Shown here piece after piece: positions 28,915 through 36,484 of a stretch of 62,808 nucleotides of DNA. Origin of the DNA: Lachnospiraceae bacterium (GTDB lineage Bacteria > Bacillota > Clostridia > Lachnospirales > Lachnospiraceae); assembly GCA_030531435.1 (NCBI GenBank), contig JAUNNN010000006.1:1-62808 (forward strand), written 5' to 3'. The notes beneath the pieces are model-generated. The model made no database searches. It had not been told where the DNA came from and saw only the letters and a list, made by a program, of their open reading frames with translations. The translations under genes were made by a program, and so were the position numbers. Each line of letters starts with the position of its first letter. Positions within the stretch are counted from its first letter, which is position 1.

Positions 28915-28986
28915 GGCTGATTGGTCAAGCGGTTAAGACGCCGCCCTCTCACGGCGGAAACAGGGGTTCGATTCCCCTATCAGCTG
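28915..28986 (+). tRNA. tRNA-Glu (anticodon CUC)
   Basis: A 72-base cloverleaf is visible. The acceptor stem pairs GGCTGAT with ATCAGCT (first pair G:U). The D arm has GTC/GAC with AAGCGG in the loop. The anticodon stem CCGCC/GGCGG carries the loop CTCTCAC, so the anticodon is CTC, which reads GAG. The T arm is AGGGG-TTCGATT-CCCCT, and the discriminator base is G. The 3' CCA is not encoded. It is a single tRNA gene with its own promoter and terminator, between polC and a transporter gene. Confidence 0.95.
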
Positions 28987-30681: not shown

Positions 30682-30726
30682 GCTATTATCTAACGGTATA
30701 TAATTTTATATGAGGAGGAAAAAATT

Positions 30727-31512
30727 ATGAAAAAATTTGCTATGGTAGCAGCTCTTGCAATGACAGTAGTTTCACTTGCAGGATGTGGATCAAAGGCTCC
30801 AGAAAACAAGGTATTTTCTGCTGATGATCTTCCAGGAAAAGTAATTGGTGTTCAGCTTGGAACAACTGGTGACATTTATGCTTCAGATTACGAAGCAGAA
30901 GGTTCAACAATCGAAAGATACAACAAGGGTAATGATGCGGTTCAGGCTCTTAAGACAGGAAAGGTTGACTGTGTAATTATCGATGAACAGCCAGCAAAGG
31001 CATTTGTTGAGAAGAATGATGATCTTAAGATTCTTGACGATCCATTCGCTCTTGAAGAGTACGCTATTTGCGTAGCTAAGGAGAATTCAGATCTTACAGC
31101 AAAGATTAATGGTGCACTTGATGAGCTTAAGGCTGATGGTACACTTGATTCAATCATTTCAAACTTCATTGGTGAGGAAAGAGGACAGCATCCTTACGTA
31201 TCACCAGATGGTGTTGACAGATCAAATGGTGAACTTGTTATGGCTACAAACGCTTACTTCGAGCCATATGAGTACTATGAAGGTACAGATGTAGTTGGTA
31301 TTGACCCTTCTATGATGCAGGCAGTTGCTGATAAGCTTGGTATGGAGCTTAGAATTGAAGATATGGAATTCGATTCAATCATCACAGCTGTTCAGTCAGG
31401 TAAGGTTTCAGTAGGTGCAGCAGGTATGACAGTTACAGAAGACAGATTAAAGAACATCGACTTCACAAACCCATACACAACAGCTACACAGGTTATTATT
31501 GTTAGAAAATAA
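30727..31512 (+). CDS. Solute-binding lipoprotein (SBP family 3, polar amino acid) with circularly permuted lobes
   Basis: The 261-residue lipoprotein has a signal peptide with lipobox LAGC (Cys20). Residues ~36-150 match the second half of a family 3 binding protein: DLPGKVIGVQLGTTGD, a Lys-Gly-Lys-Val-Asp-Cys-Val-Ile strand, then the C-terminal helix ELKADGTLDSII. Residues ~166-261 match the first half: NGELVMATNAYFEPYEYYEG, VGIDPSMMQAVADKLGM, EFDSIITAVQSGK and the ligand-loop AGMTVTEDRLKNIDF. A ~16-residue linker (GQHPYVSPDGVDRS) joins the old C-terminus to the old N-terminus. The protein ends where the lobe-crossing strand should be. So the full fold appears present but circularly permuted. 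The permease and ATPase genes follow. Ligand is probably a polar amino acid. Confidence 0.9.
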   Translation: MKKFAMVAALAMTVVSLAGCGSKAPENKVFSADDLPGKVIGVQLGTTGDIYASDYEAEGSTIERYNKGNDAVQALKTGKVDCVIIDEQPAKAFVEKNDDLKILDDPFALEEYAICVAKENSDLTAKINGALDELKADGTLDSIISNFIGEERGQHPYVSPDGVDRSNGELVMATNAYFEPYEYYEGTDVVGIDPSMMQAVADKLGMELRIEDMEFDSIITAVQSGKVSVGAAGMTVTEDRLKNIDFTNPYTTATQVIIVRK

Positions 31513-31526
31513 AAATGCAGTAGGCT

Positions 31527-31548
31527 CCCACGCACTCAGGTGCGTGGG
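31527..31548 (+). other. Intercistronic GC-rich hairpin between binding protein and permease
   Basis: CCCACGCAC and GTGCGTGGG form a perfect 9-bp stem with a TCAG tetraloop, 15 bases after the binding-protein stop. There is no T-tract, so it is more likely to protect the 3' end of a processed mRNA than to terminate. That would give more binding protein than permease, as in other ABC importers. Confidence 0.65.
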
Positions 31549-31592
31549 CAGCATTACTTTAGCGTAGTAAATAACTAAAAAGGATTTATCAC

Positions 31593-32276
31593 ATGACATT
31601 TTCCGAAAAATTTCATCAAAATTTTATTCAGGATGGCAGATGGACTTATTTAACAGATGGTCTTAAAAGTACCATTATTATAACTATTTTTGCTGTCATT
31701 CTTGGAACATTAATTGGTATGCTTGTAGCAATTGTCTGCTCTACGTATGCTAAGAATGGCAAGCTAAAAGTGCTTAATTATATTTGCCAGATTTATTTAA
31801 CAGTATTCAGAGGAACCCCTGTAATGGTACAGCTCCTTATTATGTTCTATGTAATCATGGCATCTTCAACAAATAAGCTTTTTGTTGCTATCCTTACTTT
31901 TGGTATTAACTCTGGAGCATATGTTGCAGAAATAATGCGTTCGGGAATCATGTCAATTGATAATGGACAGTTTGAGGCAGGCCGTAGTCTTGGATTTAAT
32001 TATGTTCAGACAATGAGATTTATTATTATTCCACAGGCGTTTAAAAATGTACTGCCAGCACTTATGAATGAGTTTATTACTCTCCTTAAAGAGACATCAG
32101 TCTGCGGATACATTGGACTTATGGATCTTACAAAAGGTGGAGATATTATTCGAAGCAGAACATATGAGGCGTTTTTACCTCTTATGGCAGTAGCCATTAT
32201 TTATCTTATAATGGTGTGTGGACTTTCTGCAGTTGCTAAAATGGTAGAAAGGAGACTTCGAATTGGAGAAAACTAA
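31593..32276 (+). CDS. Polar amino acid ABC transporter permease
   Basis: The 227-residue membrane protein is a HisM/GlnP-type permease with about five helices. Diagnostic segments are YLTVFRGTPVMVQLL (amphipathic entry, before helix 3) and the ATPase-contacting EAA loop EAGRSLGFNYVQTMRFIIIPQAFK. It works with the permuted binding protein upstream and the ATPase gene it overlaps by 14 bases. Only one permease type is encoded, so it probably forms a homodimer. Confidence 0.9.
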   Translation: MTFSEKFHQNFIQDGRWTYLTDGLKSTIIITIFAVILGTLIGMLVAIVCSTYAKNGKLKVLNYICQIYLTVFRGTPVMVQLLIMFYVIMASSTNKLFVAILTFGINSGAYVAEIMRSGIMSIDNGQFEAGRSLGFNYVQTMRFIIIPQAFKNVLPALMNEFITLLKETSVCGYIGLMDLTKGGDIIRSRTYEAFLPLMAVAIIYLIMVCGLSAVAKMVERRLRIGEN

Positions 32277-33009
32277 TAATAACATCATTTTTGATGTAAA
32301 GGATTTAAGAAAGAGCTTCGGAAAATTAAATGTATTAAACGGAGTGGATATTAAGGTAAATGCAGGAGAAGTAATTGCTGTAATTGGACCATCAGGTGGT
32401 GGTAAGTCAACATTCCTTAGATGTCTTAATAGACTTGAGGAACCAACTGGTGGAGAAGTTTATTTTAAGGGTAATCTTACTACAGCTAAGACTTGTAATA
32501 TAAATGAACTTCGTCAGAATATGGCAATGGTATTCCAGCATTTTAATCTGTTTCCACATATGACAGTGCTTGATAATATTACACTTGCACCTACAAAGCT
32601 TAAAAAGGAAGCAGAAAAGAACGCGAAGGAAAGAGGTTTAGAGCTTCTTAAAAAGGTTGGTCTTGAAGAAAAAGCTAATTCATATCCTTCACAGTTATCA
32701 GGCGGACAGAAGCAGAGAGTTGCTATTGCAAGAGCTCTTGCTATGGATCCTGATGTTATTCTTTTTGATGAGCCTACATCAGCTCTTGATCCTGAAATGG
32801 TAGGTGAAGTTCTTGATATTATTAAGGAACTTGCTGGAACAGGTATTACAATGATTATCGTTACACATGAAATGGGCTTTGCAAAAGAAGTAGCAGACAG
32901 AGTAGTGTTTATTGATGAAGGAAAAATAAAGGTAGATGAAGCACCAGATGTATTTTTCAATAATCCAGAAAATGAGCGATTAAGAGAGTTTATTTCTAAG
33001 GTGCTTTAA
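32263..33009 (+). CDS. Polar amino acid ABC transporter ATP-binding protein
   Basis: The 248-residue ATPase has Walker A GPSGGGKST, Q-loop in MVFQHFNLFPH, signature LSGGQKQR, Walker [12 protein letters not shown] and switch His in VTHEMGFAKE. It resembles GlnQ/HisP of polar amino acid importers. The start is TTG at 32263, inside the permease reading frame, with AAAGGAG eight bases upstream; no nearer ATG fits. It completes the first of two transporters in tandem. Confidence 0.92.
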   Translation: MEKTNNNIIFDVKDLRKSFGKLNVLNGVDIKVNAGEVIAVIGPSGGGKSTFLRCLNRLEEPTGGEVYFKGNLTTAKTCNINELRQNMAMVFQHFNLFPHMTVLDNITLAPTKLKKEAEKNAKERGLELLKKVGLEEKANSYPSQLSGGQKQRVAIARALAMDPDVILFDEPTSALDPEMVGEVLDIIKELAGTGITMIIVTHEMGFAKEVADRVVFIDEGKIKVDEAPDVFFNNPENERLREFISKVL

Positions 33010-33050: not shown

Positions 33051-33833
33051 ATGAAAAAATTTATATCAGTTTTATTAGTAGCTGCTATGTGTTTTTCACT
33101 TACAGCATGTGGCAATAAGGCAGCTGCAGATTCAGATTCAGCAGCAATTAAGGCAAATGGAAAGCTTGTAGTTGGTATTACAGATTTCGCACCAATGGAT
33201 TACAAGGATGATGCTGGTAACTGGGTTGGATTTGATGCAGATATGGCAGCAGCTTTTGCTAAGAGTCTTGGAGTTGACGTTGAGTTCGTAGAAATCGACT
33301 GGGATAACAAGGTATTAGAGCTTGATGGTAAGACAATTGACTGTGTATGGAATGGTATGACACTTACAGATGAAGTTAAGTCAGCTATGGAGTGTTCAAA
33401 TGCATATTGTAACAATGCACAGGTTGTAATCGTAAATAAGGCAGTTGCAGATAAGTATCAGACTGTAGATTCACTTTCAGAGCTTAATTTTGCTGTAGAA
33501 GCAGGCTCAGCTGGTGAGGCTGAGGTTGAAGCTCTTGGCTTAAACTTCACACCTGTAAAGGCTCAGGCAGATGCACTTATGGAAGTAGCAGCTGGAACAA
33601 GTGATGCAGCAGTTATTGACTCACTTATGGCAGCAGCAATGGTAGGTGAGGGAACAAGCTATGCTGACCTTACATATACAGTAGGCCTTAACTCAGAAGA
33701 ATATGGTGTAGGATTCAGAAAGGGTTCTGATCTTGCAGCAATGTTAAATGATTTCTTCAAGGCTTCAGCTAATGATGGAACAATGGAAGCATGCGCTGAA
33801 CAGTATGGCGTTCAGGCTGCACTTATTAAATAA
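33051..33833 (+). CDS. Solute-binding lipoprotein, SBP family 3, canonical lobe order
   Basis: The 260-residue lipoprotein has a lipobox LTAC (Cys20) and normal family 3 order: NGKLVVGITDFAPMDY and WVGFDADMAAAFAKSLG first, then TLTDE in the ligand loop, the crossing strand AQVVIVNK, and the second lobe ending in a helix with NDGTMEACAEQYG. It should bind an amino acid and deliver it to the permease at 33894. It is a direct contrast to the permuted protein at 30727. A weak 5-bp hairpin lies between it and the preceding ATPase gene; RBS is GAGGAG. Confidence 0.93.
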   Translation: MKKFISVLLVAAMCFSLTACGNKAAADSDSAAIKANGKLVVGITDFAPMDYKDDAGNWVGFDADMAAAFAKSLGVDVEFVEIDWDNKVLELDGKTIDCVWNGMTLTDEVKSAMECSNAYCNNAQVVIVNKAVADKYQTVDSLSELNFAVEAGSAGEAEVEALGLNFTPVKAQADALMEVAAGTSDAAVIDSLMAAAMVGEGTSYADLTYTVGLNSEEYGVGFRKGSDLAAMLNDFFKASANDGTMEACAEQYGVQAALIK

Positions 33834-33847
33834 TTAATGTAAATAAT

Positions 33848-33868
33848 GGGCACACTTATTGTGTGCCC
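33848..33868 (+). other. Intercistronic hairpin after the second binding protein
   Basis: GGGCACAC and GTGTGCCC form a perfect 8-bp stem with a five-base loop, 14 bases after the binding-protein stop and 25 before the permease start. It has the same position and probable role (3' protection, uneven expression) as the hairpin at 31527-31548. Confidence 0.65.
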
Positions 33869-33893
33869 AGATTTATACATAATCGGAGATAAA

Positions 33894-34574
33894 ATGTTTG
33901 CAGAACAGTTTCCAATAGTATTTAATGCGTTAAATGTTGGTTTTTTACAGACAATTAAATTGTTTTTCGTAACACTTCTAGGAGCTTTGCCACTAGGCCT
34001 TATTATTTCATTTGGTTCAATGTCAAAGCTGACTACACTAAGAAGTATTACTAAGGTATTTGTTTGGATTATAAGAGGAACACCTCTTATGATTCAGCTT
34101 CTTATCATTTATTATTTCCCTGGACTAGTACTTCATAATCCAATATGGGGCGGCGGTGAAGGCGGAAGATTTGGCGCCTGTGCAGTTGCCTTCATAATCA
34201 ATTATGCGTGCTATTTCTCAGAAATATATAGAGGTGGAATCCAGGCGATTCCTCAAGGACAGCATGAGGCAGGTCTTGTACTTGGAATGACGAAGTCTCA
34301 AATTTTCTTTAAAGTAAAACTTTTACAAATGATAAAGAAAATTCTTCCACCAATATCAAACGAAATAATAACTCTTGTAAAAGATACATCCCTTGCAAGA
34401 ATCATTGCCCTTCAGGAAATTATCTGGGCAGGACAGGCATTCTTAAAGGGAAGTCAGGGAATATCTGGAGCAATATGGCCATTATTCTTTACTGCAGTAT
34501 ATTACCTCATTGCAAGCGGCTTATTAACAGTTTTACTTGGTGCGTTAGAAAAGAAGTTAAATTATTTCAGATAG
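33894..34574 (+). CDS. Polar amino acid ABC transporter permease
   Basis: The 226-residue permease has about five membrane helices, an IRGTPLMIQLLIIYYF segment and an EAA-type loop (EAGLVLGMTKSQIFFKVKLLQ). It differs from the other permease in a glycine-rich loop (GGGEGGRFG). I start it at ATG 33894, nine bases after CGGAGA; an earlier in-frame ATG at 33846 would put the intercistronic hairpin inside the coding region and lacks a ribosome site. It pairs with the binding protein at 33051 and the ATPase at 34586. Confidence 0.9.
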   Translation: MFAEQFPIVFNALNVGFLQTIKLFFVTLLGALPLGLIISFGSMSKLTTLRSITKVFVWIIRGTPLMIQLLIIYYFPGLVLHNPIWGGGEGGRFGACAVAFIINYACYFSEIYRGGIQAIPQGQHEAGLVLGMTKSQIFFKVKLLQMIKKILPPISNEIITLVKDTSLARIIALQEIIWAGQAFLKGSQGISGAIWPLFFTAVYYLIASGLLTVLLGALEKKLNYFR

Positions 34575-34585
34575 GTTAACATAAT

Positions 34586-35362
34586 ATGCCAATTTTAGAA
34601 GTTAAAAATATATCAAAACAATTTGATAATACTCCGGTATTAAAGGATATTTCATTTACAATGGAAAAGGGAACTGTACTTTCAATTATTGGTTCCTCTG
34701 GTGGAGGTAAGACAACACTTCTTCGCTGTCTTAATTTCTTAGAGATTCCAGATAAGGGAAAGATTATTGTAAATGGAGAAGAATTATTTGATGGAGAAAA
34801 AAATAAGACATTTACTGACAATGATTTCAGATTAAGACGTCTGCATTTTGGCCTCGTATTTCAGTCATTTAATCTTTTCCCACAGTATACAGCCCTTGAG
34901 AATGTGGCACTTGCAGGAAAGCTTCTTGCAAAGGAACGTCCTGATTTTAAAACAAATAAAGATGCTATTTATGCAGAAATAGACGAAAGCGCAAGAGAGC
35001 TTCTTACAACAATGGGACTGAAAGAGAGAATGAATCACTATCCTCATCAGCTATCAGGTGGTCAGCAGCAAAGAGTTGCAATCGCAAGAGCCCTTGCCTT
35101 AAAGCCTGACATTCTATGCTTTGATGAGCCTACATCAGCTCTTGATCCTGAGCTTACAGGAGAAGTTTTAAAAGTTATTAAAGAACTTGCAAATAATAAA
35201 TATACAATGATTATTGTTACGCATGAGATGAGCTTTGCAAAAGAAGTTTCAGATCAGGTTATATTTATGGATCAGGGTATTATTGCAGAGTGTGGTACCC
35301 CTGAAGATGTCTTTGATAATCCAAAGAATGAGAGAACAAAAAAATTCTTCACCAATTATTAG
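34586..35362 (+). CDS. Polar amino acid ABC transporter ATP-binding protein
   Basis: The 258-residue ATPase carries Walker [11 protein letters not shown]-loop [11 protein letters not shown], signature LSGGQQQR, Walker [11 protein letters not shown] and switch His in [11 protein letters not shown] ~15-residue insertion ([13 protein letters not shown]) after the first strands is absent from the ATPase at 32263. It is the last gene of the second transporter, 11 bases after the permease. Confidence 0.92.
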
Positions 35363-35377
35363 AAAGGTTGACATAAT

Positions 35378-36484
35378 ATGGGAAGAGATGCAACATACGA
35401 TGATTATGATTTAAATAAAGCTGCAACAATGCAGGAAACAGACAGAAAGTGCCCACAGTGCGGAGGCACAATGGATTTTGATCCAGCTCTTGGAAAACTT
35501 CACTGTCCATACTGTGATTATACAGAAGATATTCCAGAAGCGGATATCCCATCAAGTAAAGCAGAGGAACTTGATTTTGAAACAGCTGAATTTACTGGAA
35601 ACTGTGACTGGGGTACAGCTCAAAAAACAGTTACTTGTAAGTCATGCGGTGCAACAACAGTTTATGATGCCCTTGAGGTTGCAAATGAGTGTCCATACTG
35701 TGGTTCAAATCAGGTAATGGAAGCAAATGATGTTAAAACATTAGCCCCTGGTGGTGTTGTAGCATTTAAAATCACTGCAAAGCAGGCAGGAGAGAGATTT
35801 AAAAAGTGGTTATCTGGAAAGTGGTTTTGCCCATCAGAAGCTAAAAAATCAGCTGAAGCAGATGCATTTAAGGGAGTTTATCTTCCATACTGGACATTTG
35901 ATACAGATACAAGTAGCACATATACAGGTGAATACGGATATCATAAGAAGCGTAAAAGAAATGGACAGGAGGAAACATATACTGAATGGCATAATACGTC
36001 AGGAAGCTTTGAACATTTTATAGATGATGAGCTTGTTTGTGCCACAACACAGCATGATCCTTCAATAATGGCTTCAATTGAACCATATAATACAGAAGAT
36101 AACAAAGCCTATAGACCTGAATACATTGCAGGATTTGCTGCTGAAAGATATTCAATTGGGCTTAAGGAAGCTTTTGAAAGAGCAAAGAGAAGCATTGCTA
36201 GTAAGCTTCAGTCAATGATTGGAAACAAAATCATGTCTGAACATAATGCAGATACTTACAGAAATGTAAGAGTAAATACAAACTTCAGTAATATTACTTA
36301 CAAGTACTTAATGCTTCCAATCTGGATATCAAGCTTTACATATAAAGGCAAAGTATACCAGTTTATGGTAAATGGACAGACAGGTAAGGTTGGCGGAAAG
36401 TCACCTATTTCTGCACTAAGAGTTGCTATTGCAGTTTTAATAGTGATTGTGTTTATTTTACTTATTGCATATCTGTCATCATAA
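35378..36484 (+). CDS. Zinc-ribbon protein with C-terminal membrane helix, unknown function
   Basis: The 368-residue protein starts with two zinc ribbons: CPQC...CPYC (residues ~28-50) and CKSC...CPYC (~88-110). A ~200-residue central domain that I do not recognise follows (contains YLPYWTFDTD and LMLPIWISSF), and a C-terminal transmembrane helix (last ~25 residues) with almost no tail makes it tail-anchored. Clostridial homologues are often mis-named after the helicase PriA because of the zinc ribbons; no helicase motifs are present. It follows the second ABC transporter by 15 bases and its upstream sequence nearly repeats that of the ATPase gene (GGTTGACATAATATG versus GGTTAACATAATATG). Confidence 0.78.
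   Translation: MGRDATYDDYDLNKAATMQETDRKCPQCGGTMDFDPALGKLHCPYCDYTEDIPEADIPSSKAEELDFETAEFTGNCDWGTAQKTVTCKSCGATTVYDALEVANECPYCGSNQVMEANDVKTLAPGGVVAFKITAKQAGERFKKWLSGKWFCPSEAKKSAEADAFKGVYLPYWTFDTDTSSTYTGEYGYHKKRKRNGQEETYTEWHNTSGSFEHFIDDELVCATTQHDPSIMASIEPYNTEDNKAYRPEYIAGFAAERYSIGLKEAFERAKRSIASKLQSMIGNKIMSEHNADTYRNVRVNTNFSNITYKYLMLPIWISSFTYKGKVYQFMVNGQTGKVGGKSPISALRVAIAVLIVIVFILLIAYLSS

Follow-up and report, generated by a model that had tools for sequence, protein, structure and literature searches.

The natural circular permutations known so far are for the most part ancient and separate distantly related proteins. Among importer binding proteins, a permuted Type I protein that binds glucose has been described in Treponema pallidum (PMC4990184): Tp0684 (MglB-2), for which the class 'Type Ic / Cluster Bc' was proposed and which has relatives among treponemes and Gram-positive bacteria of the gut. 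It resembles the protein described here in being a natural circular permutant and a lipid-anchored importer binding protein, and its authors suggest a link with tethering; however, TpMglB-2 has a Type I sugar fold, to which the permutation adds a fourth lobe crossing (PMC4990184), whereas our protein belongs to a type II amino-acid family and gains none. With Type Ic / Cluster Bc it has the circular permutation in common but not, by Pfam, a Type I (Cluster B) sugar-binding sequence. In another case, glycine betaine-binding proteins, molybdate-binding proteins and CysB are linked by circular permutation (PMC2395249); these binding folds are likewise related via circular permutation, but they are remote (<24% identity) and were compared by structure, whereas the permuted and ordinary forms studied here are 60-75% identical per half, which makes recent permutation events traceable. 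The glycine betaine-binding (OpuAC/ProX) profile gave no match to our protein in Pfam at E <= 0.001, and in chain order the structural resemblance was weak (TMq at most 0.52). The tandem substrate-binding domains (SBDs) of GlnPQ (6h30) have an SBD1-SBD2 junction that matches across both permuted halves, and the permease-fused permuted SBDs described below are their counterpart; however, every SBD of GlnPQ is in the ordinary order. Solute-binding protein (SBP) family 3 itself (PF00497; E. coli GlnH; AncQR) shares with our protein the sequence, the pocket residues, an operon with permease and ATPase, and a single confident predicted fold, but in our protein the equivalent of GlnBP residues 97-226 precedes that of residues ~1-96, and the termini lie on the small lobe. 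Searches of the open-licence PMC literature listed no permuted family-3 SBP, and word searches in the CIRPIN paper PMC12667903, in PMC2861598 and in PMC9732360 gave nothing on permuted SBPs. Permuted SBPs are known in other families (PMC4990184, PMC2395249); the surprising part is their recurrence in family 3 and the existence of two mirror-image cuts, referred to below as site A, the order found in our protein, and site B.

The window, by which we mean the whole analyzed stretch of 62,808 nucleotides from a Lachnospiraceae genome, contains at positions 30727..31512 of the forward strand, which also carries the other parts of this operon and the SBP gene at 33051..33833, an open reading frame for 261 amino acids, in which the lipobox LAGC with the anchor residue C20 can be read directly. 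The gene is preceded by a Shine-Dalgarno-like sequence, GAGGAGGA (30712..30719), which was also read directly. A sequence-only reading had interpreted the gene as coding for a circularly permuted SBP of a polar-amino-acid importer, with the two family 3 halves in reversed order and each expected segment present once in one frame. Profile and sequence searches agree with it in these respects. A phmmer search against PDB matched AncQR with a total E value of 3e-44 in two strong stretches of reversed order, residues 28-150 on chain positions 108-233 (80 bits) and residues 167-261 on 9-104 (73 bits); Pfam SBP_bac_3 (PF00497) scored 115 bits against a gathering cut-off of 26.4, with the match again split in two, of which the part from residues 170-261 on profile positions 1-92 was the best; and the best NCBIfam stretches were residues 31-148 on positions 125-250 of TIGR01096 and residues 167-260 on 24-117 of GlnH. 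These scores exclude chance as the source of the reversed-order matches. At E <= 0.001, Pfam reported nothing besides SBP_bac_3 and, below its own cut-off, Lig_chan-Glu_bd.

The signal peptide and lipobox (30727..30786) stand immediately ahead of the normally C-terminal part (30808..31176, residues 28-150), which by phmmer, NCBIfam and GlnBP mapping comprises the small lobe, the second hinge segment and the C-terminal helices. A linker (31177..31224, residues 151-166) bridges the former C- and N-termini, and is followed by the normally N-terminal part (31225..31509, residues 167-261), assigned by phmmer, Pfam, GlnBP mapping and the predicted structure to the large lobe, the first hinge segment and the first small-lobe strand, with QVIIVRK as its final strand. 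In an alignment of five permuted homologues C20 is retained, and the linker is less conserved than both halves. Both halves are complete and single, and the product is not a fragment. The ordinary order of the family (large lobe a, small lobe, large lobe b) is not found in it, and judged from these matches the protein is a circularly permuted variant of SBP family 3 rather than an ordinary member. We propose, with a probability of about 0.88, that the gene encodes the lipid-anchored SBP of a polar-amino-acid ABC importer with the operon structure SBP-permease-ATPase, and that this circularly permuted family 3 lipoprotein is a natural permutant.

Alignment to GlnH of E. coli K-12 places the last residue, K261, on GlnBP position 96 and the start of the mature chain on position 97, in agreement with the earlier statement that the part normally at residues ~100-230 comes first. 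According to PMC13229503, the large domain of GlnBP comprises residues 5-84 and 186-224, the small domain residues 90-180, and the hinge 'residues 85-89, 181, and 189'. By this mapping the new ends are located within the small domain, after its first strand and seven residues past the first hinge segment; because the cut at GlnBP 96/97 lies past segment 85-89, both lobe crossings, and with them both hinge segments, are read as continuous after the permutation. The new ends had been placed at the first lobe-crossing strand, but on the GlnBP mapping they fall just beyond the hinge and not in it. The possibility that only one lobe crossing is left after the permutation was rejected, as the mapping together with the published domain limits keeps both. 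Of the effects that the sequence-only reading had suggested, on lobe closure, ligand release or tethering, the sequence itself implies only a change of the tethered lobe: the chain end with the lipid anchor now belongs to the small lobe and no longer to the large one.

An AlphaFold2 prediction based on 80 aligned sequences of the permuted family gave one confident fold (pLDDT 96.0, pTM 0.90), in which the expected strands and helices each occur once and in the permuted order; the model thus predicts that the halves form a single fold, as the sequence-only reading had supposed. Foldseek, whose alignments follow the chain, is unable to superpose a permutant, and its TMq values did not exceed 0.52 among the best 50 of 1254 matches; within these 50 the top match was the tandem SBD1-SBD2 chain 6h30, and the others were partial fits. 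The permuted-family profile matches 464 PDB sequences, and among the best 60 of them only 6h30 has a best stretch that covers both halves in the permuted order, while no solved family-3 SBP in permuted order was present among these 60. The relatives with solved structures include ArgBP of Thermotoga, domain 1 of which is among the Foldseek matches. ArgBP swaps domains, and the reversed half of one chain of our protein might in the same manner complete the lobe of another chain in a dimer. We regard such a domain-swapped dimer as very unlikely, given that a single chain was modeled at this pTM and that the linkers of the listed site-A proteins, 18-31 and mostly 18-20 residues long, look long enough to close the chain on itself.

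The equivalents of GlnBP F13, F50, G68, T70, R75 and D157 are conserved in the window protein, whereas D10, K115, G119 and H156 are replaced by N, Q, T and I, respectively; the identical changes occur in four proteins of ordinary order (L014, L190, L188 and L023). We take all ten positions to be ligand residues of GlnBP, with T70, R75 and D157 presumably forming the pocket for the alpha-carboxylate and alpha-amino groups. Since the pattern is kept and changed as in ordinary relatives, the ligand is probably an amino acid and not necessarily glutamine. For the mature part, comparison with the homologue L010 gave dN 0.107 and dS 0.937, with similar values for either half. This conservation under purifying selection, together with pocket and operon, speaks for a functional part of an importer. 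In the proposed mechanism, of the ordinary Venus-flytrap kind, two lobes would close on the amino acid in the manner of GlnBP and then pass it to the permease, the lipid anchor being carried by the small lobe and not by the large one.

The permease and the ATPase of the family are encoded alongside the permuted SBP. The permease gene (31593..32276) codes for a BPD_transp_1 protein whose best NCBIfam models, cystine and glutamine permeases, score below their cut-offs, and the ATPase gene (32263..33009) codes for a GlnQ-like protein, also below the model cut-off, with TTG as its first in-frame start codon. The interval between the SBP and permease genes, taken with the SBP stop codon (31510..31592), contains a strong hairpin (MFE -29.8 kcal/mol, z -5.45), which may favor SBP over permease mRNA. 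Downstream, a second family 3 lipoprotein (33051..33833) is in the ordinary order, as had been noted before, and matches SBP_bac_3 in a single stretch. A protein of 368 amino acids with zinc-ribbon-like matches below the Pfam cut-offs is encoded at 35378-36484, directly after the second importer operon. A search of the whole window against Rfam at gathering scores returned a tRNA (28915-28986) as the sole match and no riboswitch that would hint at the ligand.

The reversed order of the halves proved to be widespread among gut-type Clostridia, and the window protein is not an isolated case. In the half-domain annotation of all fetched loci, in which distinct proteins were told apart by shared 6-mers, 120 free-standing site-A loci gave 104 distinct proteins, 61 permease-fused ones gave 54, and the 31 site-B loci gave 31; four partial ORFs were set aside, and the L116 fragment was counted as fused. 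Among 392 sampled genomes of the order, 39 have a full-span match at E ~1e-70 or better, excluding the tandem case G381; this is a lower bound, with about six candidates scored per genome, and 36 of the 39 were read as reversed and three were not fetched. Named genomes contain at least 80 such loci, and all 80 listed are reversed, 62 of them free-standing and 18 permease-fused, including one split over two frames (L116). Their carriers, e.g., Roseburia hominis, Ruminococcus bromii, Blautia schinkii, Parasporobacterium paucivorans and Ruminococcus sp. FMBCY1, the last with a complete chromosome, are by name nearly all Clostridia, with one metagenome-assembled genome labeled Bacteroides. A broader profile found matches at E <= 1e-40 in 84 of 391 genomes of the class, which include site-B proteins and some ordinary half matches. 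In the phylum sample, four of 398 genomes had a match at E <= 1e-55, the window's own among them and one outside the class. A free-standing site-A permutant from outside the class (L231 in genome G506) has an uncertain position in the tree. With duplicate loci left out, 106 of the 108 free-standing site-A loci that leave enough sequence downstream have the permease gene next, 62 of 64 have the ATPase gene, and in 92 of 110 a lipobox-like motif was recognized by a crude pattern. Thus, the order is widely conserved beside permease and ATPase genes. The window comes from a draft assembly of 95 contigs, where a sequencing or assembly artefact might conceal a normal gene order, as the sequence-only reading had itself pointed out. 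The chance of this is practically negligible: the 104 distinct free-standing proteins have the same order, among them that of the complete chromosome of Ruminococcus sp. FMBCY1 (L122) and those of records that are not marked as metagenome assemblies (L093, L108, L124 and L146), and the signal peptide, ribosome-binding site and operon of the window gene are intact. Independent genomes thus already refute the artefact.

A second type of permuted SBP was found in a genome of the same genus (G013), where locus L050:2072-4345 on contig C257 is a complete counterpart of the ordinary operon of the window (33051-35362), with SBP, permease and ATPase genes. The SBP of this locus, unlike its counterpart in the window, is permuted, at nearly the same place as the protein of 30727-31512 (GlnBP 98/99). 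Half by half, it shares 75% and 60% identity with the 33051 protein, against no more than 42% and 34% with any other site-A protein then in the set; support for pairing L050 with the 33051 protein varies between trees, from 99/83 with 108 rows to 95/42 with 40 rows. Five further proteins of this type (L232-L236) were found among 250 genomes of the family. A single clade of the six L050-type rows is compatible with the data (p 0.238), yet in the tree the six are not resolved from 17 ordinary rows. Their linkers start with YGVQxxxxEQ in all six and end with DxxYIxxKGxLxVG in five, the Y being absent from L236. Among ordinary relatives, YGVQ occurs in the C-terminal tail of 12 of the 14 proteins of L237-L251 with an available tail sequence, and SDxxYxxxKGxLxxG is found at the mature N-terminus in 15 of 15. 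The L050-type linker thus looks like the old C-terminus joined to the old N-terminus, and it matches the remnant that would be expected of a tandem fusion and loss of the outer halves, a route to permutation that is described in PMC2213659. Accordingly worded, our hypothesis for the origin is that two SBP copies would have been fused in frame and in tandem and that their outer halves would subsequently have been lost, a course of which only the L050 type bears a footprint. The linkers of the window's own clade are diverged, with the sequence PYxSPxxVDRSNG shared between the window protein and numerous relatives; we found no fusion footprint in them and no tandem intermediate inside this clade.

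These comparisons also bear on whether the window protein is a permutation of one SBP at all or a chimera of half-genes from two SBP paralogues. The closest ordinary relatives do differ by half, being L191 for the N-half (73%) and L033 for the C-half (68%). However, by identities per half both halves find their nearest matches among the ordinary SBPs of one wider clade, within which the permuted clade is nested in a concatenated tree, and both L050 halves are nearest to one gene, that of the 33051 SBP (75% and 60%). We consider a chimera improbable and retain the circular permutation of a single SBP.

Site-B proteins were recognized in the course of this search. They start at about GlnBP 171-173 and end at about 170-172, which results in the order last small-lobe strand, large lobe, remaining small lobe. 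Partial spans of 98-259 and ~70-235, which could have been weak or broken matches, turned out to be site-B permutants in those fetched: this arrangement was read in all 31 loci retrieved for such spans (11 of 11 and 20 of 20; L168-L178 and L282-L301), from the class of the window. A confident fold was predicted for one member, L282 (pLDDT 92.5, pTM 0.84, 31 sequences). The two cuts are mirror images: in each, the hinge-side strand of the small lobe stays attached and the loop beyond it is freed.

The distribution of permuted proteins on phylogenetic trees shows that the rearrangement arose more than once in Clostridia. A first tree of 57 rows, built with identical rows merged and without nine duplicate, partial or divergent loci (L005, L007-L009, L048 and L055-L058), needed five changes between ordinary and permuted order. 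In a second tree, for which 15 duplicate or partial loci were omitted and 231 rows were thinned to 108 at 74% identity within class, the window protein belongs to an all-permuted clade of 40 rows (100/97) nested among ordinary SBPs. This tree needs 10 changes, a number to be read with a bootstrap that is not fully settled, and fewer are required if one relies on its well supported branches only. AU tests on 40 and 44 chosen rows, in which the groups were named after the first tree had been seen, so that p values near 0.01 are weakened, rejected all site-A rows as a single clade (p 2.2e-5), the main clade with L050 (p 0.002), the main clade with L013 (p 0.011), and sites A and B as one clade (p 0.017). 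A common origin was not rejected for the main clade with L185 (p 0.255) or with L182 (p 0.469), nor for all site-B rows (p 0.114 with 40 rows and 0.319 with 44 rows). One origin for all permuted forms is thus rejected, and the AU rejections would imply, provided that no reversions took place, a minimum of three origins for the site-A order and of one for site B. The separation of L013 from L050 rests on identity distance, L050 being at most 42% and 34% identical per half to any site-A protein. Parsimony counts changes without direction, and the 10 changes were counted on a large unrooted tree, on which the permuted order might be ancestral in part of the family and some of the changes might be reversions to the ordinary one. 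Such a history appears unlikely: the rows next nearest to L050 (L006, L116 and L163) are ordinary, and the only chain among the best 60 of 464 PDB sequences that spans both halves is a tandem of two ordinary domains (6h30). Repeated departures from the ordinary order remain the preferred reading.

It is conceivable, though we put it forward with more doubt than conviction, that the repeated permutation of family-3 SBPs in Clostridia at two mirror small-lobe loops, which directly follow the first hinge strand and directly precede the last, is an adaptive convergence, by which the tether, or the permease attachment of the fused forms, would be placed on the small lobe instead of the large one, altering docking and release and leaving the pocket untouched. 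In two species of one genus, the same importer gene exists in an ordinary and a permuted form, the halves of which are 75% and 60% identical. Together, such close pairs, the two mirror cuts and the one apparently retained junction allow a direct test of how proteins become permuted, and the same material could serve to test which SBP lobe needs to be tethered for ABC importer function. They also provide a warning, in that annotation by the best domain match treats permuted SBP genes as ordinary.

The reversed order also occurs in fusions with the permease, in which the C-half is followed by the N-half and the permease domain. Several of these have tandem permuted SBDs ahead of one permease, with two (L039-L042, L044-L047 and L181), three (L274 and L279) or five SBDs (L180). 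The last of these (G314:C150) is an open frame of 1527 amino acids with five tandem permuted SBDs and one permease domain. A frame of 910 amino acids (L043 / L264, G046:C17) combines a permuted SBD, a permease and an ATPase in a single polypeptide, and in Ruminococcus sp. SIG544 a permuted permease-fused gene is split over two reading frames (L116). The supposition that the long frames are tandem ordinary SBPs was rejected, as among those read it applies to L179 only and the others have one to five permuted SBDs. L179 (G381:C2) is a frame of 973 amino acids, in which three tandem SBDs of ordinary order, near-identical by eye, are fused to a permease; an array like this is of the kind from which a permutant could be cut.
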